Shown: one piece after another, positions 3,991 to 59,455 of the stretch
How the letters are laid out: each line of letters opens with the position of its first letter
How positions within the stretch are numbered: position 1 is the first letter of the stretch
NCBI GenBank assembly: GCA_950295325.1
Contig: OX485808.1
Span: 14,448,501-14,512,500 of the forward strand
Direction: 5' to 3'
Source: Polytrichum commune
Taxonomy: Eukaryota > Streptophyta > Polytrichopsida > Polytrichales > Polytrichaceae
DNA length: 64,000 bases
Made by a program: the position numbers and the translations under genes
Notes under the pieces: generated by a model
What the model was told of the DNA's origin: nothing
The model's database searches: none
Seen by the model: only the letters and a program-made list of their open reading frames with translations

Positions 3991-4554
3991 TTTTTGCCTA
4001 TGATGGGGGCGGCGGGGGGATTGGTAGCCGGATGAAGTTGGTGTTGTTTAATAACTTACATTAGTAGCCCACCCACCCTAAGTCGGCTGAGCCTGGCCTC
4101 CTTCAGATCGAGTCTCATGCGCCTGGCCTCCACCATGAATGCTTGGAGTTAGTATGGGATGCTGCTGTCAGTGTAACTTCAAGTGCAGGAGAATGCTGGA
4201 GTGCCCCGTAACCGACTCACTTAAAGGAATCACGACAATCGGTGTTGACCGATCGATCTTCTCTCCTTCCATTTTGCAATGAGCGACTGCATGTGTATAA
4301 GTTGGATAGGATAGGAATACAAAGTTAAGCGATCTAGTATGTCTACGGATTCCTTGAGTGCATGTTGAGTGTATTTGAGTGGAGTCGCCTTTTTTTTAAA
4401 AACTCAACTTAAACACTATATTCGTTAAATTGAGACTTTTTGGGCATTTTGAGACATTCACATAAATAAGAACAAGGATAAATGGAACACATATTGGAGA
4501 AAGTTGTAAGATGCGAACACTTTGAAGCAGGTGTTTAGACCAAGAACCCCATAA

Positions 4555-4840
4555 ATAACTCATATTTGTGATGGTTTAGGGTGGGCAATCCAAATCTTAG
4601 ACCACATTTAAGGGGAAACCTTAAAACATTCATATTATTGCACACAAAATATTAGAGCTTGTATGAATATGGTTTAGGTAGGGCAATCCAAACCATAGAT
4701 CTTATTGAAGGGTTAATATGTTAACCAATATAATATTGCATACAAAATATTCCAAACTCATATTTGTGATGGTTTAGGTAGGGCAATCCAAACCTTAGAC
4801 CATATGGAAGGGGAAATCATGTCTAACTTATATTATTGCA
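4555..4840. repeat. Subterminal tandem repeat, about 100 bp x3
   Basis: Three imperfect units carry the core GGTTTAGG-(GT/TA)-GGGCAATCCAAA at about 4573, 4671 and 4771, each followed by (C/A)TTAGA-like sequence and a TATTATTGCA(T/C)ACAAA stretch. The same three units are in the second element copy near 62575-62850. In CACTA elements, subterminal repeats of this kind bind the element's regulatory protein; that role here is inference. Confidence 0.6.
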
Positions 4841-4975
4841 AAAAAAACATACAAAGTGTGGCATGTAAAATGCATATCATGCTAACACCACACATCCATT
4901 GGATAGTGCGACCCAAAATGTTCTTGCCTATGACCCAAAACCCTACGCCTACTATGGCCTATCTAGCCTCGGATA

Positions 4976-5275
4976 CTACCTCTTTTTCTTTTGCTTCATT
5001 TTCTTTTCTTTTTTTTCTTTTGCCTCTTTTTCTTTTGCTGCAGCTTCTTTTGCTCGCATTGCTTCAATATTCCTGAAAATCTCCGCCCCGCGACTATAGC
5101 CATTCTTGGGGTGAATGCCATCAATAACACATTTTGGATTCCGTCGGCCGCCCGAATTATACGACGAAGAATTCGAATACGATGAAGTGGACTGTCTTGC
5201 ATTTCTGGTCATGGAGTAGAAACGCTCCAACTCGATGGACACACTAGCCCGCATAGGTTTACGGGTGGGAGCAAC
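4976..5275 (-). CDS. Element exon G, Lys/Glu-rich C-terminal exon
   Basis: Exon of 100 codons including the stop. It begins after an acceptor GCAG at 5276-5279 with VAPTRKPMRASVSIELE and ends in a run of Lys, Glu and Ala (KEKEAKEKK...). It joins exon F in phase 0 (F ends at a GTGAAC donor). The N-terminal part is Ser/Arg-rich and the C-terminal part is a charged, probably helical tail. In the second copy (62963-63295) the tail is 11 codons longer and ends in SEAR, so this copy has lost part of the purine run and changed frame at the very end. No known domain. Function unknown. Confidence 0.5.
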   Translation of the reverse strand, partial: VAPTRKPMRASVSIELERFYSMTRNARQSTSSYSNSSSYNSGGRRNPKCVIDGIHPKNGYSRGAEIFRNIEAMRAKEAAAKEKEAKEKKEKKMKQKKKR

Positions 5276-5413
5276 CTGCAACGCGTCAATGCAAGAACAC
5301 ATGTGTTAGTTTAGGGAGGAAGACCCAAACGTGTCACACGTTCATTTTTTAAGTGCAAAATGATTGTAATGCGTGGATAACCATGTTTTTTTTTTTTGGG
5401 GGGGGGGGTTCAC

Positions 5414-5767
5414 CTTGTCACCGGGGGCGTTCCCATCGGAGTTGGCGAGGAGGGGCAAGGCATCCCGCAAAGGAATAGGAAGGGTGCCACTCCTCGTAGG
5501 CCGACCGTCCATCCGCAAACGTCGTTGAGGTGTAATATGGCCACCGGGTCGAGAGGGGGACGTCCGGACACATTTGCGATCTATGCCCTTCAGCGGCGAC
5601 GGGGACACAGATCGCCGGAAGATTTGCTTGGGTGGGGGGCTATCGACGACGCCGGCGTCAAGAGGCTCCTTGGAGTAGTCAATGGTTGACGCGGCGTCGT
5701 AAACGGTCTCGTAGAAGAAGCTCCCCAAGTCTGACTCGCTGACGATGTCAATCGAGGGCTCCAAACG
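5414..5767 (-). CDS. Element exon F, unknown protein
   Basis: Exon of exactly 118 codons, phase 0 at both ends. Acceptor CTCCAG precedes RLEPSIDIVSESDLGSFFYE, and the donor follows GDK (GTGAAC). It encodes an acidic start, then a basic Pro/Ser/Arg-rich segment (FRRSVSPSPLKGIDRK, PSRPGGHITPQRRLR), and is probably disordered. The second copy at 63435-63788 has the same length and frame with only a few substitutions, which suggests coding constraint or recent duplication. Exon E upstream ends in a stop at 5911, so whether F and G belong to the same transcript as E or form a separate gene is unresolved. The 138-bp F-G intron contains a T/G homopolymer run. Confidence 0.5.
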
Positions 5768-5910
5768 CTGGAGCCAAAATTGGAACAAAACAAAACCCAA
5801 GGAAAAGGGGGGAGATAGAGCGCGTGAAAATCAAGATACATATGAAGCGTAAATTACACAAAATGGGCGGGCGCATACACACACACACACATACAAACAC
5901 ACGTACTGTC

Positions 5911-6723
5911 TCAAATGAGCTTGTTAAATTTCGCGTGAGATAACAACTCTCTGTACAAATGGTCTCGTGGATCCAAGTATCTCTCGCCTATGGAATTATT
6001 CCTAACAAAATTGTTTACGGGAAGTCCGCTTCCCCAGAGCGCCTGGAGGTATTTACTAAGGTCTAACAAAAATCGGTCCCGGACCTTCTCGACCGTCCAC
6101 GTAGGGCACACTATGAAGTTGGCCGTCGGGTTCAACATGTTCTTTGCAGCGCTGTCGTCCACCATGAGCGTGTTCTCGCGGGTGGGGCGGACGTCGTAGG
6201 GGACGCCTATCAAGGACGGTCGCTGGTCCCAAAAAATGGGCTTCAAGACCTTAAGGTATTGGGGGGAAGCGGGGTTGTTTGGTTTTTTGATGACTTTGCC
6301 GTCCTGTGTGTACAATATTCTACAGGCTTCATGTGCTAGGACCATGCAGGGGGGCTCGATGCCCTTGAAGATGAATTCCACGACGGCATTGGTGTTCTCG
6401 GCCTTCATGGAGCTCCACACGACCACCCATCATCGTTGTTGGGCGATATGGAGGAAGGTCCGAAGCCACGGGCGGAGGTGAACTAGCTTGCTCTTTATGA
6501 ACGTGGGCGGCCCGTCATAATTAGCGTCCTCGGGCTTGCAAAAGGGCACTGTGGGGGTCCTAGGGCAATGAACGCACTGCACGAGGACACCGTTCAGGTC
6601 TAACACCAGGAATCGTTTCTTCGGCAGCGGGGGCGGGGCGGGTAAAACCGGGGGGGCCGCCGTGCTGCCCTCTGCGCTCCTTGGAGAAGAGCGTCGGGGA
6701 GCCGCTACGCTATGCTCCGAGCC
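5911..6723 (-). pseudogene. FCP1/NIF-like HAD phosphatase domain exon (element exon E)
   Basis: Frame of 271 codons starting after an acceptor CAG at 6724-6726 (GSEHSVAAPRR...). Residues 36-48 read KKRFLVLDLNGVL, the HAD motif I (D-x-N here, D-x-D in active family members). HLRPWLRTFL follows at about 82-91, then VVVWSSMKAENT (motif II region, about 100-111), FWDQRP, and ENTLMVDDSAAKNM (motif IV DD). This order is that of FCP1/NLI-interacting-factor (SCP-like) C-terminal-domain phosphatases. One in-frame TGA at 6430-6432 (codon 98) interrupts it just before motif II, with no frameshift. The second Asp of motif I is replaced by Asn, so catalysis may be lost even without the stop. A phosphatase domain inside a transposon gene is unusual; domain capture is inferred. 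Confidence 0.65.
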
Positions 6724-7186
6724 CTGCTGATACGAGCGAGAGAAAACGGGGGCGACTTATGTCATGCTATGTCCAAACGAAGCATTAAGGAAACGAGTGT
6801 TCTTGGTGCAAACACAAAACCAATTGATTCATTTTGGGGGGGGGTGCAACAAGGGATACAAGAGAGACAAGAGCATACAAAATACATTCAAACACAATAT
6901 ACAAGTATATAGGAGTAAAAAATGGTGATTGTATTGTATACAATGCTCTATGTACATCTTGATTGGGGGGAGCCGCGTTGAACGATGCGTTCAAACTAGC
7001 CTACTTCTAAATCTAGAAAAATTTGAAGAGACGGGCCGCCGTGATGAAGACTTCGTCGCAAGCCGGGGTAGGTGGACGAACGAATGGTCGCTGGGGGTGA
7101 CGAAGGGCACGAGTGCCGGGGGGGGGGCGCGTAAGTTCGTCCTAGCTAGGGGACATGACCAAGGCAAGAAGTCAAAGACCCAGGGA

Positions 7187-7208
7187 GTTTGGGTCGACCG
7201 ACCCAAAC
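7187..7208. repeat. Single TTTGGGTCG palindrome in an intron
   Basis: GTTTGGGTCG-AC-CGACCCAAAC, perfect arms. It lies about 20 bp inside the intron that follows exon C (donor GTAATG at 7224-7229). It is the only copy in this part of the intron. The exon between C and E is uncertain; a possible one lies around 7030-7155, with a CDEVFITAARLFKF-like peptide. Confidence 0.8.
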
Positions 7209-7229
7209 TGAGTGGGGTCAGTGCATTAC

Positions 7230-8765
7230 CTCGCCTTGGTCGTGCCTTGACGACGTTGATGCCGGCATCGCGTGCGCTGCCCCACCTCTGTCACCGCCGC
7301 CTCCGACGACGACGTCAGCCGCAACCTGCTCCTGCAAAGGCTGACTGTCAGGCCTTTGTCCCAACCCAACCTCCGCATGCGCATCATGCATTGGTTCATC
7401 GACTGGGTTAGGAGTAGAGTTATCACTAGGCCCTTGCGGGCCTTCAACGTCTAACATGGGCTCGTCCACCGGGGTCTGGTCAGGGACGGGGTTTGGGTCG
7501 GCCGACCCAAACCCTGCTGCTTGTCGAGCATCGCTCTGGGACACTGCAACGTCGGCACTGTTTGGGTCGGCCGACCCAAACCCTGCTGCTTGGCGAGCAT
7601 CGCTCTGGGACGCTGCAACGTCGGCACTGTTTGGGTCGGACGACCCAAACATGTGGGGGTCGTCCCGCTGGTGGTGTGGGGGCGAGAGGATGGGAGGCCG
7701 GAGCGGCGGGGGCGCCAACGAGCTGGACGCTCCGGGGACGCGCCAAAGGTTGGGGTCGTCCACCTGCTAGACGGGCGCGTAAGGACGGGCGTGCGGCTGC
7801 AGCAACTATGCGAAGCTGAAGGAATGCTGCAGCGTGGGCCGCGGGGCGATATCCTGTGGCGGGAAGCCTGCGGGCAAGTGCGGGAATGAACTCGGGGGAG
7901 CCATCACCAATCCCTGCGCCAGCATGCCCTGGATCACTTGCGTGATGAGCTCCGCTTGGGACGGAGGTTGGGCCATCGCCCTTTGCCGCTCCTGCTCCAA
8001 CAGGAGAGCCCTCAACTCCGCGACTTCGTTGCGGACCGAGGGTTCCTCGGCGGCAGCCCTCTGCAGTCGCACACGCTGCTCCTCGTCTCGGAGCATTTTT
8101 GCGTTCGCCTCCTCCACGGTGAGGACCTCCGGTTTCACCCTCACATTCCCGGCGAACGCTCTGGGGGAGGCAGGATCCGACCTCAGCCTCTTGGCGAGTT
8201 CCATGTCGTCCTCGTCCTCTGAGCTTATTGCGATCGTCTCCTCCACCGCATAGTCGCCGTACAGCTTCTTCCCCTTCATCCTTCTCCGCTCCCTGAAGGT
8301 GGCTGTCGCGTCCCTCGAGTACATGTCTTTCGCGTCGTCCACCGTCAACGCGGGTACCAGCCTGCTCTACGGCGTGGCAGCCCACATGGCCTTCTTCCGC
8401 TGAGGGGCCTCGGATTCTTGAGTGAATCCTGTTGCCCCTTCCTCCACCTCCCCCTCCACTTTCTCTGCTTCCTCCTCCTCCTCCTCCCCCTCCTCCCCAA
8501 CCTCGCCACCTGCTCCCATCGACGGATTGTCCGGATGCAACCCGATGAGCGGCTCTGGCAATTGAACGGGGGCACGCATGGCGAATTCACCCGGGTTGAT
8601 TCGCCTCGCCATATCCAAAGGATTCTCGCCCCCCTCGACTATCTCTTCAACGTAGGATCCGGGTATCCAGTCGAGGATGTCCATTTTCTTGGCCAGTGCC
8701 TTCTGGGTCCTGTAAAATTGAACATCGGCATCCTCCACATAGGAGTAGATGTTCAACCCAGACAT
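7230..8765 (-). pseudogene. Element exon C, coiled-coil/acidic protein with palindrome repeats
   Basis: A single phase-0 frame of 512 codons from ATGTCTGGG (after acceptor GTGCAG) to a GTAATG donor, with three in-frame stops (TAG at 8367-8369, 7806-7808 and 7767-7769) and no frameshift seen. It starts MSGLNIYSYVEDADVQFYR, then has a Glu-rich stretch (EEGEEEEEEAEKVEGE). Next come TVDDAKDMYSRDATATFRE and an EDEDDMELAKRLRS segment, and a likely coiled coil (EEANAKMLRDEEQRVRLQRA to EVAELRALLLEQERQRAMAQ). The C-terminal part contains three 23-residue repeats (GFGSADPNSADVAVSQSDAR), each built on one palindrome copy. I do not recognise the family. Proline- and acid-rich tails like this are common in gag-like or DNA-binding transposon proteins, but that is a guess. 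Confidence 0.5.
7491..7650. repeat. Three palindromes at exact 69-bp period inside exon C
   Basis: Copies at 7491-7512 (centre GC), 7560-7581 (GC) and 7629-7650 (GA). The period is 69 bp, exactly 23 codons, so the array stays in frame. The 47 bp between palindromes is also repeated. The palindrome translates as FGSADPN, VWVGRPK or LGRPTQT depending on frame and never makes a stop. Confidence 0.9.
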
Positions 8766-8848
8766 CTGCACAATCCAAATCAATAGTATTAGTATCAACT
8801 AATGAAGAGTAAGGAAAAATGACATCCAAAACAAAATAAGAATAGTTA

Positions 8849-8941
8849 GTTTGGGTCGAGCGACCTAAACTAGGGGATGCACAGTTTGGGTCGAGCGACC
8901 CAAACTATGTTTGCCCCTAGTTTGGGTCGCTCGACCCAAAC
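8849..8941. repeat. Three palindromes in the exon B-C intron
   Basis: Copies at 8849-8870 (one mismatch), 8884-8905 and 8920-8941, spaced 35-36 bp. Centres are AG, AG and CT. They occupy the middle of the 210-bp intron at 8766-8975 (donor GTAAGC, acceptor GTGCAG). Confidence 0.9.
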
Positions 8942-8975
8942 CGTCCATATAGGGCCTTCAGGGTTCTTTGCTTAC

Positions 8976-10307
8976 CATTACTGCAAAAATTGGTTTGGAT
9001 CCCCCGAAAACGTTGAAGATGCAGTCCCCTCTCTTGGTGAGGGTCCTCATCATCCGCAGGTAGAACTCCATGCGCAGCTCATCCGCGGGGTAGTTGGCGT
9101 ACTTTGCCTCGTCATACAAGCTCCTGCTGGTACCCAACCCTTCTTGGACTTGGAAGAGTTTTTCCATCCTGGCTATAGGATGGTTGGGCACCTTAAGTAG
9201 ATCAGCTTTGTACACGAAGTACAAGCACAACACGTTGACGATCTTCGTCTTCTTGTCTTTCAACGTGCTATACGCCCCCTCCACCGGTGCAGCAACGTAG
9301 TGAGATTTCGAGACGGCATACTCCGGCTGCAATTTGCGCACGATCTCGTAAACCTGCTCTGCCCTCCTGTCCTCGACAATCCAGAGCCAGACGTCGACCT
9401 CCCTGAATTTGGGGCTCGCGTAGTCCACGAACTTCGACAAGAAAGGATCGTAAAAAGGGGTGCTCATAGTCCCCTCGAATGAGGCTCCATGGATATTCCT
9501 GAAGTCTATCATTCCGAAGGGGAAGCGGTCCCCGGCTTTAGTCCTGATCGCCTTCCTGGACTCAGAGCCCGGCCAACCTTGGATCCTGAGAGGCTCGACG
9601 GTGACCATGTTGAATTGCGCATCGCCTTCGAAACTGACGATCTTCTTCTCCTTTATGAAGTTGGAGAAGGCCCGCGCTGAGTGTTCGGGAAGCACCCGGT
9701 TCCTCCCCCCCTTCACGAGCTTGGATCTGAGGAAGTCGTCTCCCGCCTCCCTCATGAGTGCCGCCATGGACGCACTGGTGAATTTATATTCGGCTTTGAA
9801 GGCCCTCCAGTGCGCCTCTTGGACCTCCCCGTCCACGATGAGCTTCTTCTCAGGCACCAGCTTGTGCAGCTCCTGGACGATGGTCGTCTTCTTCTTCCTG
9901 TTCTCCGTCCATTCCTTCATGGTGTAGCATGAAGGGACAAAGATCTTGGGTTTGGTGAAGACGATCTTAGGGTGGACCCAACATCTCTTCGCCGTCGTCT
10001 CCACGTGTATGATGTGGGACGCCGTTTTTCCCATCTCTGTCTCGGAAAGACCTTGAAGCGCTCTGAAGAACTCCCTCACCAGAGGCTTCATTTGCTTGAA
10101 GCGCGTAGTCTGGTTGAAGAGCATGCCGGTGTCGGGGTCCATAAGGTCCCCCGTCTCGTGTTTCTCAAAAACACTCCTCCATTTTCCCCACACGGAGTCG
10201 GACGCGGTGATCAAATATATTTCTCCTCGCAACTCGTTATACTTTTTTTGCTTGTGGCTAGCATTGTCTATCGAGGAGAATTTATTGATCATCTGATATT
10301 TGAAATC
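8976..10307 (-). CDS. Element exon B, large unknown protein
   Basis: An uninterrupted phase-0 exon of 444 codons. It begins DFKYQMINKFSSIDN after acceptor GTGCAG and ends NVFGGSKPIFAVM at a GTAAGC donor. Recognisable blocks include GEIYLITASDSVWGKWRSVF, LVREFFRALQGLSETEMG and VHPKIVFTKPKIFVPSCYTM. The most conserved-looking core is RFPFGMIDFRNIHG...DPFLSKF...EVDVWLWIVEDRRAEQVY followed by AVSKSHYVAAPVEGAYS. Trp/aromatic- and Asp-rich cores like this suggest an enzyme, but I cannot assign a family and do not claim one. It is the best preserved part of the element gene, with no stop, unlike exons A, C and E. Confidence 0.65.
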
Positions 10308-10369
10308 CTGCACACGTAGCCAACAATTCATGTTAGACAACATCTCATGGAATAACAAATGTAACAGCA

Positions 10370-10505
10370 GTTTGGGTCGATCGACCCAAACTATAAACCT
10401 GGTAAAGACAACAAAGCCATGCAAGAGTTTGGGTCGACCGACCCAAACTATGAAATTGTTGAAGACAATAAAACAATGAAAGAGTTTGGGTCGGTCGACC
10501 CAAAC
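10370..10505. repeat. Three palindromes at exact 57-bp period forming an intron
   Basis: Copies at 10370-10391 (centre AT, fully self-complementary), 10427-10448 (AC) and 10484-10505 (GT). The 35 bp between them is repeated with a few changes. The array fills most of the 206-bp intron 10308-10513 (donor GTGAGT next to the third copy, acceptor GTGCAG). The intron length is not a multiple of three and exon A's frame hits a stop inside it, so splicing is needed. Confidence 0.9.
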
Positions 10506-10513
10506 ATACTCAC

Positions 10514-11839
10514 CTCCCATTTGGGGTTCTTATCTTTAGCATTCTCCCTTTCCCTGGGAGGCCTGCCATAAAACTCCCACACCTCCCTCGAGGCCATGAT
10601 GTTTCTGATCCACGATGCCTGATAGGCCCTCTTTTTGTTCCCCATGTTGAAGAACCTGGAGATGTCGCTGAGGACCGTCTCGTTGTCCGACCAAACCACC
10701 AATGCCTTCCAAACTTTTAGTTTCTCCTTCTGGTTGTTCGGGTCGTTCCACTTGGTCATCAACTGGATTTTTTTTTATGCCTCCACACTGTGCTGCCCGT
10801 CAATCAACCAAAAGTCTCCTTTGGAAATTGTCGGCCACATATCAGGCGTCGGCATTCTCTTCAACCCTTGTGGCATGACAACAATCGTCTGCCTGTCGTC
10901 CTTGAACTGCCCGCCCACGATTTGAGCGACCATCCAGTCGACGTAGGCGTCCTCCTTGGCTCGGACACATTTCTCAGGTGGCGCAAGGTGGCACTGCGCA
11001 ATGTTGACCTCGAACTTGAAGTCCCTGCCCATGAAGAAGCAGTGCAGGCATTTTGTTTCGAAGTTGGTGTTTATTTTTTGTATTTCGCCTGAATCCACCT
11101 CCTGGCCAGGCTTCGGCATCCGGAGCACCGGGGAAACAGGCTCGTCAGTCATCACCGATGACTCTCTTCCCCTTTTGAAAGGGGTCGTTTGACGGCTTGT
11201 TGATGGCGTTGGCGTCTCGCTGTCAGCCAGCGTTGTTGTAGTACTTGTCCGTCTCGACTCTACAGGGACCGCCCGCGGTTTCCTCACAGTTTGTGGTCTT
11301 GAGGACCCTGCGCCTTCTTCCGTCGTTGCCTTCCGCCTCACAGGCTGCTGTGTCTTGGGTTTGCTTTGCAACGCCTTGTTTAGAACCGTGATGGCCTGTT
11401 TTAACTTCATGAACCTGCTCGCAACCTTCGTGTTGGTTACACTGCCATCTATGAATATGGCCTCCGGTTGTATGGTTTCAGGGTCGACGCAGGTCTCCTT
11501 GGCGTACAGGGGGTCGAAGGGCTCGGAGAACTGGTGCATGAACATGTGGACGTTCTGCACGGCGGAGTTCTCCAGTATGACGTCTACGTAGTCCCCGAGG
11601 GACTGGACGGACGCAACCTCCCATCCCGTCAGCGTTGCCCAGGTGTGCTGCTCGTGGGTCCCCACCTTCACCACGAATAGCAGCTTGAACATGGATGCCT
11701 TCACCACCTGAACGGACCATGCCAGAACGACGCCATCTTTTCGGACGTAAGAATCGTCCTGTGGAGTTTCATACTCCTGCCAAAGGTGGTCTGGCGCGAG
11801 CATGAACCACCTTTCACCTGGTCTCTTTTTAGGGGCCAT
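10514..11839 (-). pseudogene. Element exon A, unknown protein with a DGQHS motif
   Basis: Phase-0 frame of 442 codons from ATGGCCCCT (11839, directly after a possible acceptor TTGCAG) to a GTGAGT donor, broken by one in-frame TAA at 10775-10777 next to an A9 run. It starts MAPKKRPGERWFMLAPDHLW. A Thr/Ser/Pro-rich linker follows (about residues 180-240). Then comes a region with two Cys and His residues (NFETKCLHCFFMGRDF, NIAQCHLAPPEKCVRAKED), and VVMPQGLKRMPTPDMWPTIS leads into FWLIDGQHSVEA. DGQH(R/S) resembles the signature of ParB/DndB-type folds, but one motif is weak evidence. After the stop the frame continues KKIQLMTKWNDPNNQKEKLK to NPKWE. An upstream non-coding exon is possible, because the ATG sits at an acceptor. 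Confidence 0.5.
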
Positions 11840-11866
11840 CTGCAATCCAAGAAATCGAAACTGTAA

Positions 11867-11929
11867 GTTTCGGTCGATCGACCCAAAGTATTGCAATGTG
11901 CATTTAACATTTGGAGGATTGACCCAAAC
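11867..11929. repeat. Two degenerate palindromes
   Basis: 11867-11888 has one arm change (TTTCGGTCGATCGACCCAAA). 11910-11929 keeps only one good arm (GACCCAAAC). They show that copies decay outside the ordered arrays. Confidence 0.6.
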
Positions 11930-11984
11930 ATTACTTAATTTTCAAAGTCGTTTTAAAAGATCTTTTAGATTTTAAAGTGCGGTT

Positions 11985-12961
11985 TAGGTGGTCACCCTGC
12001 AATGTTTGGGTCGAGCGACCCAAACATGATGAGGCTGCAAATTTAGGTAGTTTAACCCATTCATTTCATACTGCAATGTTTGGGTCGAACGACCCAAACA
12101 TTTACTTAATTTTCAAAGTTCTTTTATATTTTACAATGTGCTTTAGTTCTTCTCCGTGTAATGTTTGGGTCGACCGACCGAAACATGTTAGGCTGTAAAT
12201 TTAGGTAGCTCAACCCAATCATTTCAGACTACAATGTTTGGGTCGAACGACCCAAACATTTACTTAATTTTTAAAGTTCTTTTATATTTTACAATGTGGT
12301 TTGTTCTTCTCCCTGTAATGTTTGGGTCGAGCGACCCAAACATGATGAGGCTGCAAATTTAGGTAGCTCAACCCATTCATTTCAGACTGCAAAGTTTGGG
12401 TCAAACGACCCAAACATGTACTTAATTTTCAATGTTCTTTTATATTTTACAATTTGGTTTAGTTCTTCTCCTTGTAATGTTTGGGTCGAGCGACCCAAAC
12501 ATGTTAGGCTGCAAATTTAGGTAGCTCAACCCAATCATTTCATACTGCAATGTTTGGGTCGAACGACCCAAACATTTACTTAATTTTCAAAGTTCTTTAA
12601 TATTTTACAATGTGGTTTGTTCTTCTCCCTGTAATGTTTGGGTCGAGCGACCCAAACATGATGAGGCTGCAAATTTAGGTAGCTCAACCCATTCATTTCA
12701 GATTGCAATGTTTGGGTCGAACGACCCAAACATTTACTTAATTTTCAAAGTTCTTTTATATTTTACAATGTGGTTTAGTTCTTCTCCCTGTAATGTTTGG
12801 GTCGAGCGACCCAAACATAATGAGGCTCCAATGTTTGGGTCGCTCGACCCAAACAAGAGGCTGCAATGTTTGGGTCGAACGACCCAAACATTTAGTTCAT
12901 TTTAGGCTGCAATTCAAATATTTATTATATTTTAATATGAGTTTGGGTCGTCTCCCCAAAC
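11985..12961. repeat. 158-bp tandem array carrying 13-14 palindromes
   Basis: About six units of 158-159 bp, each with one AG-centred and one AA-centred palindrome 72-74 bp apart. Copies start at 12004, 12078, 12163 (arm mutated), 12236, 12320, 12394 (mutated), 12479, 12552, 12636, 12710, 12795, 12833 (CT), 12868 and 12941 (degenerate). Between them are repeated blocks such as GAGGCTGCAAATTTAGGTAG and CTTAATTTTCAAAGTTCTTT. The array sits immediately upstream of exon A, so it could be the promoter or a first intron of the element gene. Confidence 0.9.
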
Positions 12962-15284
12962 TACTGTGTTTCCATATGCATGTTTAATGCTTCGGCAACA
13001 TATACAATGCTTATGCATTGTATATGTAACAGGAACCTAAAGGGAATGATGCAAATTGTGTGCACTGATGCAAATTGCTTACCTTGTCTTTCAAACTCTT
13101 GAAAGCTGCTCTCACAATCTGCTTCTTAGAACCAGACTCAAAAACTCTGTTGTGGCACTAAAGAACAACTCTCACAAAGACCTCAGAAACACAATGAATC
13201 TCTCAAGCACCCTAAAACTTTCTCACAAACCCCCTGAATCTTGCAAACTCAGGCCTAATTTGAAAGACCTCTACCTTTCTATCACACTTGACCGTGCTCA
13301 CTTCTACTCAATCTAAAATCACTCCATGCATGAAATTTACAAAACAAGTAAGGAGTTCAACACAATAAACCGCTCCGAACTCACTCAAAGCTAACACTCT
13401 GGACCAAGAAGAGAGAATAACAAGAGGAAGACAATAACAAGAGGAATAGAATGAGAGAAGAGGAGGAGAGGAATGAAGGAGAAAGAAGAATGAAGGGAAG
13501 CGGCGCGACCAAGACAAAAGCAAAAGGTGCGAAAGGAAGCGCTTGGCACGGCGCTATGGAAAGCGGCGGCGGCGTTTCCAACAGCGGCGCTTGGCGCGGA
13601 GGAAGAGAGGAAGAAAAAGAGAGAAAAAAAAAAAGAGGAGGGGAGAGAAGGAGAGAGCGGAAGGGGTCACCCTAAACCCTCGAATCCGGGCCATTTGATT
13701 GCGCCGGGCCCATCAACGGCTCAGAAGCCTCGCGGGCCAACACCCTGCCAGGTGTCGACACCTCCTTGGTTTAGGTGGTTGCCCGCGAGGCTTGTGGTGT
13801 TGACACCTGCCACCCTAGGTAGATTGCCTTCCTGGTTGTCCTTGCCCCTAGGTGCAGGACATAGGAGGGCCGGCGCCTCTCTTGGCCGCCCGGCCCCGGC
13901 CTTCTAACCCGCTATTCATTAGCGGCAATTCAATACCACTCAAAAACCTACGTGGACTAAGGTATTCCACAAAATTAACACCATCGCCAACTCATATTTT
14001 AATGGTGTTCAATTGAATGATCACCCGTTGGAATTGATAACATCGTAGAATGTAGCCATTATCGTTTTGGTGTATGAATAATGTAATTTATGGAATCATA
14101 TGAGAGTGTTACAAAGTCTAAGAGGAGTAAGTCATAATTATATTGCAATCCACAAAGGCAATTACACGGTGCAATAATATAAATATGGTAACCATTCACA
14201 TGGTTAACAGTTTAGGATTATGTATTGTAATTTATATGATAGTTGTTGGTAGAGGACAATGCTCTAGTCTATAATGGATACCCTGACAAGTAGCATTAGA
14301 GTGAACATTAATATATGTACTTAGAAGTTCACATTTGAAGTACATGGGAGAAACAAATGATTGCAAATGTATCTACTGCAACCCCATGGAGTTCACATAT
14401 CATATGAAGTCATTTAAACATTCAGTTTGATGTTTGATGATGCCTAAACCCTAAACCCTAAACAACACAAACCATAACTGGATGGCACATAGGTCAAATG
14501 ACATGGGCCTTGGTGCTTGTAGTTTCCAATACAAATGTATATTGTCATCACAACATCCTAATTCAAAAACGTGAAAGATGGATGTGTGGTTTTTCACGAA
14601 TGAACGCACTAAAGGAAATAAAACTTGGTAAGAAGAGCATAAGAACTAGATTATAATAGATAGGATGTTGTTCATGTTAACATGTTATTTGGAATAGTGA
14701 AATATTATATATTAATTTAAGGTAGATTTCATGTTGTGAATGATATGAGGACATACCTTTTGAACTTTGCATGTTTTGCTCACACACATTGCTAGAGTTC
14801 AAGGGACTTCACGATAGGTTCAAACATCCTTGAAAGATTGAACGTGCCAAATGTCATTTGTGGTTTATGGTTCCATTAATGACTTCCACATAGGTACTAG
14901 GTTATTGTCACACTTGGAGCCTTGAGGATGAAGCAATATTGGGTGCACACATTACAACACAACATATGTTCTTTTAATTAGCGGAAATTGAAAGTTGGCC
15001 AAATTATTCAAGTTTGTCATGGCATTAATTATTTGTTTTCAAAATATAAGTCCTCATGTGAGAGTGTAAGTAATTGCATTAACTATTATATTTAGTGACT
15101 TTTAGTATATGAAGTTTTGTAATACATGCACATCTTTTGTCAATATATTGTTTGAAATATACCATAATGTTTGACTACAAGTAGAGTAAAACCCCTTAAT
15201 AGATATAATCTTACATATTGTCATAGGGTTATTGGTATTCAGTGTATGCGTTCATATGTAGTGTATCAAAATCTTTATATCCTT
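12962..15284. other. Spacer with GC-rich repeat and nested palindromes
   Basis: 13450-13920 is GC-rich, with a purine-rich stretch (13440-13670) followed by an inverted repeat: GCCTCGCGGGC at 13727-13737 pairs with GCCCGCGAGGC at 13781-13791, and AGGTGTCGACACCT (13750-13763) is a 14-bp palindrome between them. The frames at 13056-13316 and 13527-13907 are composition-driven and match nothing I recognise. CCTAAACCCTAAACCCTAAA at about 14449-14468 is a short interstitial plant telomere motif. From 14000 to 15280 the DNA is AT-rich with no supported gene. Confidence 0.5.
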
Positions 15285-15600
15285 TTTAGTTATATGATAG
15301 TTAGTGTTTGATACACTTAAAACGAACGCATACACTTCCTATTACTAACCCTATGAGAGTAAGTAACATTAAATGTAAACTCAAACACTAAATATCCACT
15401 ATGGTGATATATGGAAGTTACATATAGGAATTTAGTATTAGTAAGAATGTGAGAAAAAAATACAACAATGATAAAAGGAGAAAGGAGATGGCAATAGGGA
15501 AGGTGGTGGTGTATTCATGTATAAAACTAATTATGAAAGAGTTGAAGAATAGTGTTGACCAAGTTAGGGTGGTAACAACTTTAAATATATGTTGAATTAT
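15285..15600. mobile_element. MITE family B, copy 1
   Basis: About 300 bp, similar along its length to 18225-18535. Shared blocks in order are TTAGTGTTTGATA, ACGAA(C/T)GCA(T/C)ACAC, GAAAGTAAGTAACATTAAATG (GAGAGTAAG here), ACTATGGT(G/A)ATAT(A/G)TGGAAGTTA, GGCAATAGGGAAGGTGGTGG and TAGTGTTGA. It contains ACACTAAATAT motifs like families A, C and D. Confidence 0.55.
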
Positions 15601-15639
15601 TCATTTGATGGTTGGGGCAACGAAGAGCCAAGCTAAATA

Positions 15640-15910
15640 TACATTGTCTATTATTGACAAGAAGCGGGAAATTGAGTCAGAAGGTTTGAATTAACGTCCA
15701 AAGGAGACCAGGCGGGAAAGGCATCCAAAGAGGATGCCCAAAGCGGAGGCGGGTAGTATAAAGAGCCCAACCCCCCCAAATGTTGGTTCTTCCTTTCATG
15801 TCCCAATCCTGAGATTGCTGCAAGCTCTCTAAGTTGGAGCTGTAATACACGGTTTGTGTACGCTTCCATTCATGAGCAGCTAATTACAACAAACATCTAC
15901 GAGTTCAGTT
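15640..15910. other. Possible LTR-like segment
   Basis: GTATAAAGAGCCC near 15750 resembles a TATA box. It is followed about 100 bp later by CTCTCTAAGTTGGAGC and a TACACGGTTTGTGTACGCTT region, a layout seen in Copia LTRs. I find no partner LTR or primer-binding site, so this is tentative. Confidence 0.2.
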
Positions 15911-15977
15911 GTTCCAAATAGGTTATATATAGATTAATAGAGAATCACCCGAATAAATAGGCGGATTTTGCGGAATT

Positions 15978-16135
15978 GTTTGGGTCGGTCGACCCAAACC
16001 CAGCCTTACAGTGTGGGTGCTCTCTGTTGTGAGCCTGAACCCATCCTGCCTCAAGGTTTGGGTCGATCGACCCAAACCCAGCCCCAAAGTGTGGATGCTG
16101 TCTGTAGTGAGCCTGAACTCATCCTGCACCCAAGT
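15978..16135. repeat. Two palindromes on a 78-bp repeat
   Basis: Perfect copies at 15978-15999 (centre GT) and 16056-16077 (centre AT), each followed by a related 56-bp stretch (CCCAGCC..A.AGTGTGG.TGCT.TCTGT..TGAGCCTGAAC.CATCCTGC). This pair lies 3 kb from the main array, in sequence not obviously part of the element gene. Confidence 0.9.
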
Positions 16136-18014
16136 TTGCCATTTTGCTTCTATTCGTTCTTCAAAACACAAATCTAAGGCAAGGGTAGGACAAAAATTGC
16201 AAATTTTGATCTAAAAATTATGGTGTCTTCAGTCGGAAAGCTTTTGAGGGTTGATAGAACCATGATACATATGAGCTTGAATATATGTTCATGTTTGACT
16301 ACGGGAATTGTGGTTCCTTACCACTAGACAGTTCAAATATCTATGAATAACTTTTATTTTTATTTTTTATCATATATCATAAATCCATTCAAGGAAAGAA
16401 TACCAATGCTAAGGAAAACTGCTATTCCCACGTAGTGTTTATCAACATTACAAGAATTGGAGAGAGTTTCAAGCTATGCAAATACATTAGTTAAGGACTT
16501 GCTTGTTGAAGAGACAAGTCAGTGTACTTACAAGCCTTCAACTTAGGTCACTGCTCAATTGAAGGACGCTACTACTGTTACAATTTATTGACAAGATTAT
16601 GGACCGTTTAATACATGAACATCGATTGTTAAGATCTTGATTTGTAGTACCGGTTTTAAGCTCACAACTTTAAAGACCACATTGGGTGATGATGGCTAAC
16701 CTAATCGGACTTCCATACAGTTAATTAAAGCTTCTGGACAAGGGTGTACAAGGAAACATCTCAAAATGCAAGTGACCGATATTTTTAGGGTTTAGAGAAT
16801 GGTGTTATTCTTGGAGTGTAGACTCAACATTGAGCTAATGATTCAGTTGTCATTGATTCAACCCATAATTCAACCACTTTTGAGATCTTGCAAATATAAG
16901 GTGTGCACAATAAGGATTATGTGGTCAAGTGATTGACAAATCGAGCAGTCTAGAAGGTATAAATGATGCATATCATTGGTCTATTTTATAGTGTGGTGCA
17001 GGAATGGACTCACCAAAAAATCATTGGTATTGACAGCAATCAGTCTATGTTAGTGTATCACCCGAGCTTGTCAAGTTTTATGCTTAATATTGCACGTCTT
17101 GGCACATCCCCGCTTTTTCTACAAGGCAAGGTTTTAATTACATAAAATGCAATTAAATGCAATGCATAACATTAAGTAATTGGGTTTAAAAAGGGACCTC
17201 TCATAAGAGCACCAAAGGCCAGCATTACTAGGACGTGTTGTATTTCATTTCAGTAAATCATTGTTCAAGAAAGTCTTGTAGTCCTTGGAAAGAGGAATCC
17301 AAAAATGACACTTTAAAAACTTCATAAGCATATGTAGCTCGCAACATGGCTTTGAACTGAGAGATAGCCAACCCTAGCCCCCGGCTTCTCTCACCAAAAT
17401 TGAGCATGTAGTAAATTGTATAATATTAACATCGTTGCATGGTGGTTGCATGCTTTATGTCCCATGTGGAAACCATGACCTGCTAGGCAAGTTAGCCAAG
17501 AATACCACACAATCCCCCAAAAAATTGTCAGGATTAAATGGTTGAAAATTAATCAGATCTAATAGCCCCTTGTTGTGCACTCCCCATTTGTAAAGGGAGC
17601 GACAATGAGAGGCTTGAGTATGGTTATATGAAAAAATAATTAAGGATTGGTTATGTTGAATTTAACTAGAATTAAATTGGACTTTGAGGTCATACCATAT
17701 GTAACTAGAGTTAGCTTTAACAAAACATAACTTTTGAAAAGACCTTGTTTTCTAACGAGCTTAGCAAAACAACGCGTGAGAAGAAGAGCTAAACTAATGA
17801 ACTTAAGAGTCCGGTTACTTGTCAATGTGACCATGAAACTACTACGTACTACAACCGCTTAAGCTAATTAAGAGTGTATCATATCCCTAGATGGAGTCCT
17901 TGACATTGATGAAGTTAATTGGCAACCAGGACCAATTGTCTTTGCAAACAGTCTGACAATCAAACTTAGATTTGAGTGTTGAGTAATTAGTGGCAAGGCT
18001 TTCCTCGTTGGAAC
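16136..18014. other. AT-rich spacer, no gene seen
   Basis: Only short frames (60-66 codons) that match nothing I recognise. No structural RNA seen. Confidence 0.45.
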
Positions 18015-23814: not shown

Positions 23815-24276
23815 GCGCACCTCTCGTTCATCCAACATGAAGGCCTTGAAACGGTATGCAGCCCGGACCAGTGCTCCCTCTCGCTCGTCCAACATAAAGG
23901 CCTTGAAATAGTATGCAGCCTGGACCATTTCCCCTCTCATTCATCCAACATAAAGGCCTTCAAACAATATGCAGCCTCGGACTGGTGCCCCTCTCGTTCA
24001 TCCAACATAAAGGCCTTGAAACAGTATGCAGCCTCGGACTGGTGCCCCTCTCGTTCATCCAACATAAAGGCCTTGAAACAGTATGCAGCCCGGACTGGTG
24101 CCCCTCTCGTTCCTTCAACATAAAGGCCTTGAAATAGTATGCAACCTTGACCAATGCCCCCTCTTGTTCATCCAACATAAAAGCCTTGAAACAGTGTGCA
24201 GCCCAAACCAATGCCCCCTCTCGTTCATCCAACATAAAGGCCTTGAAACAGTATGTAGCCCGGACCAGTGCCCGGG
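23815..24276. repeat. 57-bp minisatellite, 8 units
   Basis: The core TCCAACATAAAGGCCTTGAA recurs at 23831, 23888, 23944, 24001, 24058, 24114, 24171 and 24228, a period of 57 bp (56 twice). Units differ by a few bases. 57 bp is 19 codons, so long repetitive frames appear on both strands (IQHKGLETVCSPDQCPLSF type), but the two 56-bp units shift frame and I do not consider it a gene. A family F copy lies on each side. Confidence 0.9.
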
Positions 24277-30000: not shown

Positions 30001-32322
30001 GGCCCTTACAGAGATGATGGTGTATTTAAATATTTCATTGAAAAGGAGAGATAAAGATGGTCATGTTACAGTGTGAGCTCACCGGACGACCAGCAGCAGC
30101 ATTGTGCACCATAATATCAATTCCAGCTCCTCCAAAAGCCGCTTCAGCTTCATCTACAAATTTTCTCAGATCCTTGACCCCTAATGTGATGTCTGCTGGC
30201 AGCACCACCACATCATGTGGTGCATGCTTTCCTGTAACAACAACCCACCCCATAGTCAATAAGACAGCTCTCAAGGTGCATTTACACATAATCCACTGTA
30301 TTGGTGGTTGGTGATTGTGGTTTACATTCTTTGGCTCTGTTTTTGAGGGATAAAGACTATTGATGACAACCACAAGCACAACTACTCTACCTTGCTGAAC
30401 AATGATACAAGGTGTAGTTGGGAGTAGTCGTGATGGTGGTTGTAGTTTTGCTTTCTTTGGTTCTATTTTGTTTGTAGTTACTATGTGACACTGAAAGAGA
30501 ACTTCAAGGCCAAAGCAAGGGAGAAAATTTGTAGGAGGCAACCACTCTTAGACAAACTTTCCACTAGAATCCACAAATTGTTTGTGTCTCATTCCACTAC
30601 GGATTGCACCAAAAGGAGGGATGATGATTGGGGTCAACTTCAAGAGCAGTTTTGTAAATGAAAAAAAATCGGAGTTGTGGTTGAAGGTGGGCTCAAATCC
30701 CAACTCAACTGCCATGGTAGTTGTGTGTAAAAACACCTTCAAGTAACATGAATTTTAAACAACATGCCAACTCAGATGAGCCTAAAATATAGAGATGCCT
30801 TTGATCCTTCAAACCTTGTCCCACTTCCCATGATGCTCTTAATTGATCAAGAACGCAGCAGTTCCTGCTTTGAAAAGAGCTCTTGATACTGGCAACAAAA
30901 TCCTCATCACTCACAACTGCATTCGAAGTTATCTACCACAACAACATGAAAGCACATCCAAAGTAGGTAAGCTCTTAAAACAGGTATTAATCACCTTTCA
31001 AGGAGGCCTTCACCAGCTCCAATTCAGCTCCCCTTCGAGCTGTTATGATAAGCTTTGCACCCAATCTAGCATATTCTTGGGCAAGCGCTTCTCCTAAATC
31101 ATATCCAAGTGTTGGGGTTTTAGAATGCAAACCTTTTGTTTAGATGCAATGACTTGAGATGTAAACAAAGACAGAAAGAGATGAAGAGCGCGGATCCTCT
31201 ATCTTTTTGTGATTTTGTCAATTAATCAGCTGTCCTCACAGAAACTTGTACAGTATGAGCATGCATACAATCTAGGAAAAGTAGGGATAGACTGTAAGAT
31301 TGAAAGCTTGCATAAAATCGGAAATATCATGCTCGCATATTTGATATAGGTAGCATACCAATATTTTGACTAGCCCCGCTAATCCACACCACCTGCACCA
31401 GACATGGATTACAATCACTAAAGGTAAGCGAGCCTTAAACGAACACTTTTAGCTTTGAACCCACTTCTCATAGGATACAAAACATGCAATTAGTGCGCGA
31501 GAATTAGCCACTGCAAATCGTACCTGTCGTCAATTCCCTCATTATTTTCAGAGCTCATGAATATCTTATTCAATATCAAAGTGAAGATTCTTTCATATTA
31601 ACTGATCATATAGGCCCTCCAATCTCGTTGATGACTATTGAGCCTACAATGCTCAACAAATTTTAAGCACGTAGTTCAATCTCTTTTAATTCACAAGAGA
31701 TCTTTTTTGGAGTCCGTTCTTAGGTCCACACCTAACCACACACCACTCAAATATAGGAGTCCATTTAAGATGTCAAGTAACCAAATTAGGCCCGCTTACC
31801 TTACTAAATTGTTCCAGAATCCACATGTAAGAGAATCCATCCAAGTAGTGCTGCTTCCAGAAACCACAACAAATGTGCTCCCTTGGAAGCTCAAAAACTA
31901 ACAAATTGCAGGAAAAGGAACTCTACAAGTTGCAAATCTTGGAGGTGACGAACCATTGAGATTGAAGAAGTTGAAATCCTCCTTACCTTGTCCTCGATTG
32001 CACTTCGTGGAGTCGGAGGCCGCCTACTCAACGCAAAATCCCCTGTAATAATCACAGACCAATTGTAACCTCCAATTCCTACCACGACCGCAACCAAAAT
32101 GCTCCTGAATATTCAGAGAGCTCTCCTAATGAAATTCCTATCCACAAATGGAGCTTGATTTTCGAACCACGAAATCAAAAGTCGACTTGCAATTGCAGAA
32201 CATCGAAAAACCTCGTGAAAGTTACAGATTCAAAAAGAGAACGAACCATCGGTGGTTGCGAAACTGTAGACGAAGAAAAGGAATGCCGGGAGCAGGAACG
32301 CTGCGGCCAGGAGGATCAACAT
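27076..32322 (-). CDS. Short-chain dehydrogenase/reductase, DHRS7-like, 12 exons
   Basis: Intact gene of 321 residues. Exons: 32247-32322, 31987-32042, 31359-31392, 30995-31093, 30083-30231, 29391-29429, 29081-29173, 28822-28920, 27927-28016, 27714-27797, 27378-27443, 27076-27156. All joins keep frame with GT donors and AG acceptors. Residues 1-20 form a hydrophobic anchor (MLILLAAAFLLPAFLFFVYS). SGASQNIG (49-56) is the cofactor-binding turn, HNAAAG (about 131-136) the NAG-type motif, and NVLGTI (157-162) follows. Ser185, Tyr198 and Lys202 (YAASK) are the catalytic residues, and CPGPIDT (227-233) follows. Residues 274-295 are a second hydrophobic stretch and the tail is basic. This matches classical SDRs of the DHRS7 type: membrane-associated, probably ER, NAD(P)H-dependent carbonyl or steroid-type reduction. 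The substrate cannot be read from sequence. The third-position Gly of TGxxxGIG is Asn here. Introns hold family E and other repeats. The 5' half is duplicated at 59456. Confidence 0.88.
29655..29925. repeat. Dispersed repeat family E, copy 2, in an SDR intron
   Basis: Matches 22640-22990 and lies in the intron between SDR exons 5 and 6. A preceding CTAAAATCTCACATTGGTGG is typical of repeat ends in plants. Confidence 0.5.
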
Positions 32323-32359
32323 GGCTGGTGAATGGAGGAAAAACCTAGTTCCGCAATTG

Positions 32360-33510
32360 CATGTGCAGTGCAACAAAGGCAAAAACACAGAGTGTGAGCT
32401 TGACACAACATACAGAGCGAGAGAGACGGCTAAGATATATACCTGTATTAGATTTGAAAACCAGGGGTCAGGCAGGGTATGAGGAAACACAGAGCGCGTG
32501 GGTGGAGGAGGAAATCTACAAGAGAGATAGTTTTAAGAATCCAGGTATGAGAACAGAAGCGAAAGGTTAACATCTACAAATAGCATAGATTTCGGAAGTG
32601 GAAAGGTCACCAGGGCAATAAGGTATGTGGGTGTTATTTGGTTCGTTTTTCATCTTCTCCAACTTCTACCGATCATATTCACACAACAAAAATTGTGATG
32701 CATAATCAAATCTACGATGAAACATCTAGAAAAACCGGGTTGAAAATCGAACGTCCCCCGATTTAGTTATGGTTAATGGACATGCATGTTTGTTGATTTC
32801 TTAACTGAATGCATAGATCCTCCCTATTGAGTTTAGTATTGAGTGTAGAATAATTATCAATATTTGAAGATGTAGTCCAATGTCTTTTAAATACATGTCT
32901 TTATGATGTTTGCTCTTTGATCCTCCCAAACCACATACCGATCAAATAGAGGGGTCCGATTAAGAAAACAAGCCACTTAAGACCCAATCTACCTTTGGGG
33001 GCAACAGGGGAGAGTGGCATAATGCACATGATACAACAGACAGAGCAAGAGAGATGGTTGAGATCTACATAATTTATAGATTTTAGAACCAGGGGCTCGG
33101 CAGGGTAGACGAATCCTGAGCGGGAGGGTAGAATCTATAAAAGAGCATAGATCTGAGAACCAAATCAAGCAGAGAGAACCAGGGCCTGAGTGTGAAAGCA
33201 AAATCCTAATATGTACAAAAGGCGGTGGATTTGGGAATTGGAACGACCAACAGGGGCAACAGGGAAGAGAGGCAAGGTGAGCCTGATGGAACAGACTGAG
33301 CGAGAGAGACAACCCGGATCTACGAATGGCATAGATGTAGTAACCAACGGAGGGGGCAGGGGGAGGACAAACATAGAGTGAGACTGAGGGTGGAGGATCG
33401 AGTCCACGAGTGGGGTAGATTTGAGAACCCGGGCGTGAGAGTGGAAGCCAAATGATGATATGTACCGGGGGAGTAGATTTAGAATCGGAAAAGGCAAGGA
33501 CAATGTGCCA
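32360..33510. repeat. Imperfect tandem repeat of about 250 bp upstream of SDR
   Basis: Three diverged units share ACAGA(G/C)(C/A)GAGAGAGA(C/T)GG, AGATTT(G/T)(A/G)GAACC, GAGTGGAAGC(G/C)AAA and GGAA(T/G)TGGAA(A/C)G(G/A)CCA(A/C)CAGGG blocks. The minus-strand frame at 32989-33699 runs through it, but it is repeat-driven (Pro/Leu/Ser-rich) and I do not call it a gene. Confidence 0.5.
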
Positions 33511-33790
33511 AAATGCATTCATATAAACACCACCGTTAGAGTGGGTCAAAAGTAGTCCAATTGTAGTTGTTGGAGACGAGCTCTCGGTTTCATAATTGGC
33601 CATAACTTTGTCCTTGGATGAATGCAATTGTATGAGTGGATGAGAGCTCCACGAGTGGATAACTTGTGTTGCATTGAATTTGAATGTTGTCATTTTCAAG
33701 TTTATATCATTTTAATCCATGTGCGTTGAAGTCTATGGAGGGTCATACATGAGCAAATAAAAAATAGTAAACTTGTGGGGAGCAAGATTG

Positions 33791-33791
33791 G

Positions 33792-33830
<39 letters not shown>

Positions 33831-33831
33831 G
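33791..33831. repeat. (TC)n(TA)n microsatellite
   Basis: TC repeat followed directly by a TA repeat; absent from the duplicated copy near 61710. Confidence 0.9.
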
Positions 33832-34308
33832 GTAGCTTGTCCTTGTGTTCCACCTATAATTTGGTTAACCCAATATTAACACGTGCTCCTTATTGGAGTA
33901 ACTAGGTATAGAAGTGCAAGTATGTCTTCCTTCCCTTTTGGGATTACTCGGTCAAACCATGTTACATTGGAGAATATTTGATATAGAATCACATTAGTAC
34001 CTACTATCAAACTATCATGTGATCCAAAAGCATGATATCATCACGGGTACAACAATGTCCATCATGAATGACATAAGCTCGTTGGACATAGCATGTGCAA
34101 AGTATGCTTCGCTAGAAACTACTTTATGTCATTGCCCCATCTCCAATTCTTTTATAAGGTAAGAAGGATTCATATATTACGACACACAAAAGGTCCGTTG
34201 CCCAATCATAAATCAATCCGTAAGGTAAAAACCTCATGTGTGTAGCACCTTTGTTGGGTCATGCTTAGCCTTTAGCCTTAACTTAGTATTTCATGACACG
34301 GGGAACTT

Positions 34309-34546
34309 ACTCCACTAAATATTGTATTTAGTATCACTTACTATTTGAAATTAGGCAATGTTATAACTATTTACTGTATTCTCATTCTTGGTTGTCAACA
34401 AAGGTCAAATTGGTTGTTTAAACATTATGGAACATCACCATCTTTACTCGGTAAAGTTTTACATCAATAGTAAAAGAAAGCAATATGTAACTCCAAATAA
34501 TGAGTGACACAAAAAAAGCATGATATTTAGTGTAATTGTTTGAATC
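34309..34546. mobile_element. MITE family A, copy 2
   Basis: CCACTAAATATTGTATTTAGTATCACTTACTA start (34314-34345) and ATGATATTTAGTGTAA end. Same interior as 2039-2269. Confidence 0.6.
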
Positions 34547-34549
34547 TTG

Positions 34550-59400: not shown

Positions 59401-59455
59401 TGATTCGCCCTCATGGTGATTGAGGTCACGTCATGGATTACAGACAAATGTGGGA

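Follow-up and report, generated by a model that had tools for sequence, protein, structure and literature searches.

What reads a short palindrome that is repeated again and again within one part of a moss contig, and what does the element that carries it gain? The question is raised by a 64,000-bp stretch of the Polytrichum commune genome (GenBank GCA_950295325.1, contig OX485808.1, positions 14,448,501 to 14,512,500), called the window below, which contains many copies of the palindrome TTTGGGTCG-NN-CGACCCAAA. We found that this palindrome is part of a ~17-kb DNA transposon (family 1) that has inverted ends and is flanked by 4-bp target duplications, and that related transposon families of the same genome have palindromes of their own. 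We consider it moderately probable that the palindromes are family-specific sites of a protein encoded by the element itself, most likely the product of a multi-exon gene referred to here as gene 1, which may protect the element from silencing.

The palindrome in the window and in the genome

The window contains 22 exact copies of the family-1 palindrome and 4 copies with one arm mismatch, all at 7188-16076. The palindrome family described in the initial annotation was thus borne out, with a count of 26 rather than ~28, and the fixed arms and variable two central bases noted there were seen in the window copies. The copies had also been placed solely at 7.2-16.1 kb, and we found none in the rest of the window at ≤2 mismatches; variants with 3-5 mismatches occur at 4575-5329 and 62578-63349, in a few further spots, and also among the good copies of the 158-bp repeats. 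By arithmetic, 18 fixed bases should match by chance ~1e-6 times in 64 kb. In the 408-Mb source genome, we counted 9,731 exact palindromes and none of the reversed control, so that the count expected for one tandem cluster, named in the initial annotation as a refutation, is far exceeded. The forward-strand half-site TTTGGGTCG occurs 13,236 times, compared to 4,916 for its reversed control, and 9,731 of these half-sites (74%) sit in full palindromes.

The spacing of the palindromes in tandem arrays of the window is about 35, 57, 69, 78 or 158 bp, differing by array. Arrayed copies are parts of longer tandem units (35-158 bp), and the units of different arrays have little in common except the palindrome. 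Note that 98-bp subterminal repeats at 4557-4850 and 62560-62850 contain a degenerate relative of the palindrome with 4 mismatches, TTTAGGTAGGGCAATCCAAA, and that similar degenerate sites alternate with good palindromes in the 158-bp array.

The carrier transposon

The same arrays were found in the same order at other genomic loci, three of which were fetched as copies A, B and C and aligned with the window copy W (4412-16130; left end AACACTATATTCGTTAAATTGAGAC at 4412-4436) and with a second copy, W2. Only the start of W2, 97-98% identical to W, lies in the window (62415-64000), and the copy runs past it (L009). Two of the copies, B and C, are complete. Their ends read AACACTATATTCGTTAAATTGAGAC, with a few base changes in the left end of B, and their target duplications of 4 bp are AAGG in B and ATAA in C. 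C measures 16,952 bp and B 18,616 bp including an insertion. The family-1 ends read AACACTA. The left end has at least 40 copies in the genome with 100% identity over 129 bp (of 832 candidates, 40 were scored), which suggests that the element moved recently. The initial annotation had pointed to a 4.4-kb element as the carrier; the palindromes are instead carried by a group of transposons of 11-25 kb. A foreign 2.3-kb sequence at 14790-16307 of copy A was considered as an element end and rejected, being an insertion.

The presumed transposase, a DUF7869 protein (PF25273, E 1.3e-41), is encoded on one strand of the element. Gene 1 lies on the opposite strand, and a NIF-phosphatase-like part (PF03031) comes after it. 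In W, all parts of gene 1 lie on the minus strand: exon 1 with its ParB-like region (LIDGQHSVEA) at 10514-11839 (tblastn, 95% to copy A, and open reading frames (ORFs); frame interrupted in W), exon 2 at 8976-10307 (tblastn, splice sites), the C-terminal half of which has a probable N6/N4 methyltransferase-like fold, and exon 3 at 7230-8765 (tblastn, 70% to copy C; splice sites). The NIF-phosphatase-like part follows at 5914-6744 on the same strand (tblastn; PF03031 E 2.7e-6, and E 1.8e-13 in copy C). Within the window, W has no DUF7869 match by tblastn and no right inverted end. As a separate observation, a ~3-kb segment is repeated in the window at 31329-34556 and 59455-62414 (95-96% identical), the second copy stopping at 62414, exactly abutting the start of W2.

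Location of the palindromes within the element

On the basis of splice sites identified in the sequence itself, 7 of the 26 window copies fall into introns of gene 1. Three, spaced by 57 bp, lie in intron 1 (10513-10308) at 10371-10504, three in intron 2 (8975-8766) at 8850-8940, and one in intron 3 (donor 7229, minus strand) at 7188-7207. Three more, with 69-bp spacing, lie in coding exon 3 at 7492-7649 (exon by tblastn). A single copy with one mismatch is located directly upstream of the gene-1 ATG (11839) at 11868-11887, and 13 copies (11 exact, 2 with one mismatch) form the array of 158-bp period upstream of gene 1 at 12005-12888. The remaining two, at 15979-16076 with 78-bp spacing, belong to an array that stands upstream of the DUF7869 gene in C and has 17 palindromes in copy A. 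Thus, 23 of the 26 copies are outside coding exons, a feature shared with the motif arrays of VANDAL elements and their VANC proteins. In C, the palindromes at ≤2 mismatches all lie farther than 2.6 kb from the left end and 3.7 kb from the right end; one 3-mismatch variant is found 0.48 kb from the left end.

Conservation of arms, flanks and center

Arms, flanks and centers were compared in pairs of copies at sites chosen near the consensus in the first sequence of each pair, which favors the arms on that side only. Between A and C, the arms differed at 4 of 171 positions (2.3%), as opposed to 101 of 289 in the flanks (35%), 10 of 18 in the center (56%) and 1,328 of 6,777 at other bases (19.6%). 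The two subfamilies compared are 77-79% identical. Between W and A, differences numbered 3/378 in the arms, 69/726 in the flanks and 11/42 in the center; for B and C the values were 1/157, 19/290 and 1/18. The arms of A and B differed at 16 of 171 positions (9.4%), with one site misaligned or lost. The near-identical pair W and W2 showed no contrast between arms (5/378) and flanks (7/738), in keeping with a very recent origin. Thus, the arms change far less than the flanks, and the concern that they might mutate at the same rate was not substantiated.

Among 155 sites of five family-1 elements (sites at ≤3 mismatches), 119 are perfect. In the sites of these elements, all 53 changed arm pairs are altered on one side only and none is compensated, which argues that the sequence of the arms, rather than their pairing, is kept.

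The family-1 center comprises eight symmetry-reduced types among the 155 sites. Centers differ between A and C in 9 of 9 aligned sites (P ~0.007 at the flank rate; one of ten sites, having no counterpart, is omitted) and between W and A in 8 of 21 sites (P ~0.025; 3 gap sites of 24 omitted), some being reverse complements. Between B and C, only 1 of 9 centers differs, and faster change of the center was not seen there. The 2-nt center may thus change faster than the flanks in family 1, possibly through an effect at a hairpin tip or through palindrome repair.

Related families with palindromes of their own

A search of the genome with PF25273 (150 scored of 1,491 candidates) yielded several frame-length classes. 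Loci of the other classes were fetched, and repeated palindromes were sought in these DUF7869 loci without assuming a sequence. Three further families emerged, with the palindromes CCCACGGGTG-NN-CACCCGTGGG (family 2: F677, F692, F762), GGGTGRGGCA-NN-TGCCTCACCC (family 3: F975, F870, F588) and TTTACGGACG-NN-CGTCCGTAAA (family 4: F539). Across the families, the arms measure 9-10 nt and the center 2 nt. When each 20-mer was counted at ≤2 mismatches, all 11 assigned elements contained their own motif only. The counts were 26, 40, 26 and 36 in W, A, B and C (family 1), 19, 13 and 5 in F677, F692 and F762 (family 2), 25, 29 and 57 in F975, F870 and F588 (family 3), and 19 in F539 (family 4). Exact copies in the genome number 819 for the family-2 motif and 1,310 for the family-4 motif, with no copies of the controls.

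The positions of the sites, judged between homologous exons, resemble those in family 1. In family 4, introns 1 and 2 contain sites, as do the regions upstream of both gene 1 and the DUF7869 gene; in family 2, sites lie in the gene-1 introns and exon 3 and upstream of the DUF7869 gene. Family 3 has two arrays between its two divergent genes, and its element F975 contains no copy at ≤3 mismatches within 3.9 kb of either end. The target duplications of families 2 and 3 are again 4 bp (TATG and GGAA), as in all four complete elements of the families together. The inner nine arm bases resemble one another between families slightly more than shuffled arms do, with a distance sum of 32, compared to a shuffled mean of 38.3, and 3.9% of the shuffles as low. 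The closest motifs are those of families 1 and 4 (3 of 9 bases different), and the proteins of these families are also the most similar.

Gene 1 as candidate binding protein

Gene 1 is common to families 1, 2 and 4. Families 1 and 4 share ~35% identity in exon 1 and 36% in exon 2; families 1 and 2 share 30% over part of exon 2, and family-2 exon 1 is assigned by its place and a GQH stretch only. Exon 1 contains a conserved GQHxxxA stretch. In three of the four families, it weakly matched phrog_1033, a phage ParB-like partition protein (E 0.012, 0.13 and 0.32). Alignment by hhalign of a three-family exon-1 profile to 15 ParB-like sequences gave a probability of 85.6% and a score of 40.9, compared to at most 2.65% and 20.6 for 40 column shuffles; single exon-1 sequences gave 57, 6, 4.7 and 1.4%. 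Note that this comparison was not blind, because the ParB set includes L030, a phage protein found with the family-4 query; the family-3 rows L027 and L017 were left out. Pfam returned no ParB match for exon 1, and tblastn of exon 1 against phages found one phage in two records (E 3), with a ParB-like annotation in one of them. All Foldseek matches of the exon-1 model had E >1, with no ParB among them.

For exon 2, 49 of the 50 Foldseek matches listed were methyltransferases by title (best E 0.01, none ≤0.001). VIA-align on Foldseek's own list placed amino-methyltransferases in 50 of 50 rows, with Z 6.4-8.4 over model residues 225-448. On these model comparisons, the C-terminal half of exon 2 likely has an N6/N4 amino-methyltransferase fold; we grade it as likely and no higher, since these Z values are middling. 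The catalytic motif of such enzymes, (D/N/S)PP(Y/F/W), and their cofactor motif FxGxG were absent from all five exon-2 sequences (one partial), in which DFRN/DFRA and GGSK/GGTK/GGNK occupy possible positions of methyltransferase motifs. No match to exon 2 was obtained by phmmer. Profile matches of the queries A3 and A4 in the PDB were taken as chance, including one at E 0.0003 that hit an engineered cytochrome trimer, since the single repeats of this trimer score E ~30, and an NCBIfam search returned one weak, unrelated match. Neither A3 nor the DUF7869 protein had a relative in scans of viral_contigs.

A family-specific anti-silencing protein as the proposed reader

Some protein very probably binds the palindromes. 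Their two-fold symmetry suggests a dimer on two half-sites, and the presence of four private motifs in one nucleus argues for readers encoded by the elements rather than for one host factor. We think it probable that the binding protein is the gene-1 product. This would be a sequence-specific, presumably homodimeric DNA-binding protein that recognizes the palindromes of its own element, each transposon family having its own pair of protein and motif. Its targets would be the arrays that lie within the introns and upstream of gene 1, together with those upstream of the presumed transposase gene. The bound protein could then keep the chromatin of the element open, allowing both genes to be expressed despite silencing by the host, in the way VANC acts for VANDAL. 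That anti-silencing is the outcome of binding is a more tentative proposal, somewhat short of even chances; gene 1 is put forward as an anti-silencing or self-activating factor because VANC is the best match in logic. Among the three candidates named in the initial annotation, sites of an element-encoded protein fit best, and a self-spreading palindrome and RNA hairpins are disfavored.

Several observations weigh against this proposal. The 11 elements amount to only four independent families, and 7 of the 13 loci, including F692, F762, F870, F588 and F539, were seen in part. The DUF7869 loci F604 and F244 lacked all four motifs, and no repeated palindrome specific to them was seen in the 8-8.5 kb inspected. 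Family 3 gave no gene-1 or NIF match by tblastn, its gene 1 being assigned by position and by a GQH stretch matched by eye. Three of the 26 window copies lie inside a coding exon. In family 2, sites also occur close to the ends: an exact copy at 0.6 kb from the left end, and two near-copies, one with 3 mismatches at 240 bp from one end and one with 1 mismatch at 208 bp from the other (right) end. The free center is limited to family 1: in family 2, 29 of 32 sites have AA/TT, family-3 centers are TA or TG, and in family 4 CG predominates (14 of 19). Moreover, the first 100 listed genomic places of the family-1 palindrome form seven clusters; of the six inspected, three contain the element and the other three (L010-L012) gave no tblastn match to gene 1 or DUF7869, and it is thus not the case that all copies belong to one element family. 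With regard to gene 1 itself, the AlphaFold models are poor (predicted local distance difference test, pLDDT, 45 for the exon-1 and 44 for the exon-2 region). The ParB resemblance is weak, with the arginines of GERRxxA, the cytidine triphosphate (CTP)-binding motif of ParB, replaced in the four families (DGQHSVEA, DGQHSVMA, NGQHTLAA and DEQHVEHA).

Alternatively, the palindromes could be ordinary enhancers or operators of both genes, acting through an element or host factor and leaving silencing marks unaffected. Their location within introns and ahead of both genes would suit such a role, and ordinary activation by gene 1 itself would be compatible with the data. A single host factor is at odds with the finding of four motifs in four related families of one host, and we regard this alternative as unlikely.

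A mechanism in which the palindromes bind the DUF7869 protein, or an accessory protein, to assemble a transposition complex, like the TNPA sites of En/Spm, appears slightly less likely still. The sites are indeed repeated and element-specific, and they diverge along with the DUF7869 protein. The family-2 sites near the ends strengthen the transposase as a rival binder, and the 3-mismatch variant near the left end of C and the degenerate variants in the subterminal 98-bp repeats of W point the same way. However, TNPA sites are subterminal, while those of families 1 (C) and 3 (F975) are far from the ends and the majority of sites lie in gene-1 introns and upstream of genes.

RNA hairpins that are processed or bound in transcripts are very improbable: stems of 12 pairs with 4-nt loops can form, but the one-sided changes in all 53 altered arm pairs disfavor them, no Rfam match at gathering score was found in 4400-16300, and the motif differs wholesale between families. 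Least probable of all is a self-spreading palindromic insertion element, which would account for the high copy number but not for arrayed copies being parts of tandem units, and which is disfavored because the palindrome found at similar places differs from one related family to another.

Comparison with known systems

The closest parallel to the proposed anti-silencing sites is VANC of Arabidopsis. According to two reports, VANC proteins bind short motifs that are tandemly repeated in the non-coding regions of VANDAL elements, the motifs differ between related VANDAL families, the arrays expand and contract quickly, and VANC expression removes DNA methylation (PMC5735166, PMC10398659). The motifs of VANC6 are described in one of them as occurring also in the unrelated element AT9TSD1 (PMC5735166). 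Like VANDAL21 and VANDAL6, the moss families have tandem motifs in non-coding parts, with different motifs in related families. The elements as such are dissimilar: VANDALs are MULEs, whereas the moss elements have ends beginning with AACAC or ATGGGG, 4-bp duplications, a DUF7869 gene and a motif with two-fold symmetry. Unlike VANC, the moss candidate protein combines ParB-like with methyltransferase-like regions.

ParB binds palindromic sites as a dimer, and the moss system is similar to ParB-parS in its palindromic sites and in the weak ParB resemblance of exon 1. It differs in being a eukaryotic transposon and in the replacement of the GERR arginines. One may nevertheless imagine that gene 1 derives from a ParB-methyltransferase fusion of prokaryotic or phage type, turned into a self-recognition system of the transposon; we consider this doubtful. 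L047, L048 and L051 resemble, as we presume, fusions of this kind. A ParB-like dimer would load at parS-like palindromes in introns and promoters, spread over the element and keep it unsilenced, and each family would have evolved a private pair of protein and palindrome, with dozens of sites replaced in step. CTP-driven loading is speculation, because the canonical ParB arginines are absent. If this scenario were true, it would represent an independent invention of sequence-specific anti-silencing by a mechanism unlike that of VANC.

The repeated family-specific sites and the family-1 ends AACACTA are reminiscent of En/Spm (CACTA). The 4-bp duplications, the DUF7869 gene and the internal sites of families 1 and 3 set the moss elements apart. 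Subterminal motif repeats, a CACTA trait, are absent in families 1 and 3 at ≤2 mismatches and are present in family 2 alongside internal sites. Since CACTA elements make 3-bp target duplications, membership in this group, suggested by the AACACTA end, was rejected on the basis of the 4-bp duplications. Target duplications of 4 bp are made by the Sola superfamily, which the moss elements resemble in this respect.

The literature searched contained no mention of DUF7869 and no work joining a ParB domain, a transposable element and a plant genome. Titles and abstract openings held nothing on this palindrome-transposon system, and the word ParB was absent from PMC10398659.

The four families add something of broader interest. 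To our knowledge, sequence-specific anti-silencing by transposons is known mainly from VANC in Arabidopsis. If a second, unrelated group followed the logic of VANC, this would point to private codes of self-recognition as a strategy that recurs. The four families of this genome, each with its own palindrome, amount to a natural experiment on how a protein and dozens of sites change specificity together, and family-specific pairs of protein and palindrome might provide new tools for locus-specific chromatin editing.

Palindrome arrays outside the element and other observations

In the three clusters lacking the element genes, palindrome arrays with 31-34-bp spacing are located at L010:4249-4458, L011:3877-3992 and L012:3308-6028. 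By analogy with the VANC6 motifs in AT9TSD1, further element types may use the same palindrome, and ORFs next to the arrays also hint at such a type. A large ORF at L010:4861-6483 (minus strand) has no Pfam match and shares a 29%-identical stretch with a family-4 ORF (E 2e-9); we take it to resemble a transposase. An ORF at L012:7512-7997 (plus strand) with the sequence DGNHRFLAW (DGNHR) resembles gene 1 only very weakly (E 0.003). A 2.28-kb sequence is found at L012:3450-5726, inserted within the palindrome array, and at L010:742-3017 (99.9% identical), with parts also in L011 and copy A. It is perhaps a transposon that prefers palindrome sites.

Elsewhere in the window, a 57-bp tandem repeat is present in 8 copies at 23820-24273. 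Nearly the whole assembly is contained in seven contigs of 42-78 Mb. A cluster of fourteen light-harvesting (PF00504) matches with identical scores lies at G000:C5:1751760-1846160; the nearest solved chains for one of them are 9vfj_2, 8htu_U and 7xqp_a, the latter two presumably from Physcomitrium.

Finally, when 40 palindromes with random arms of the same letter composition as the family-1 motif were searched for in element C, none gave a match.

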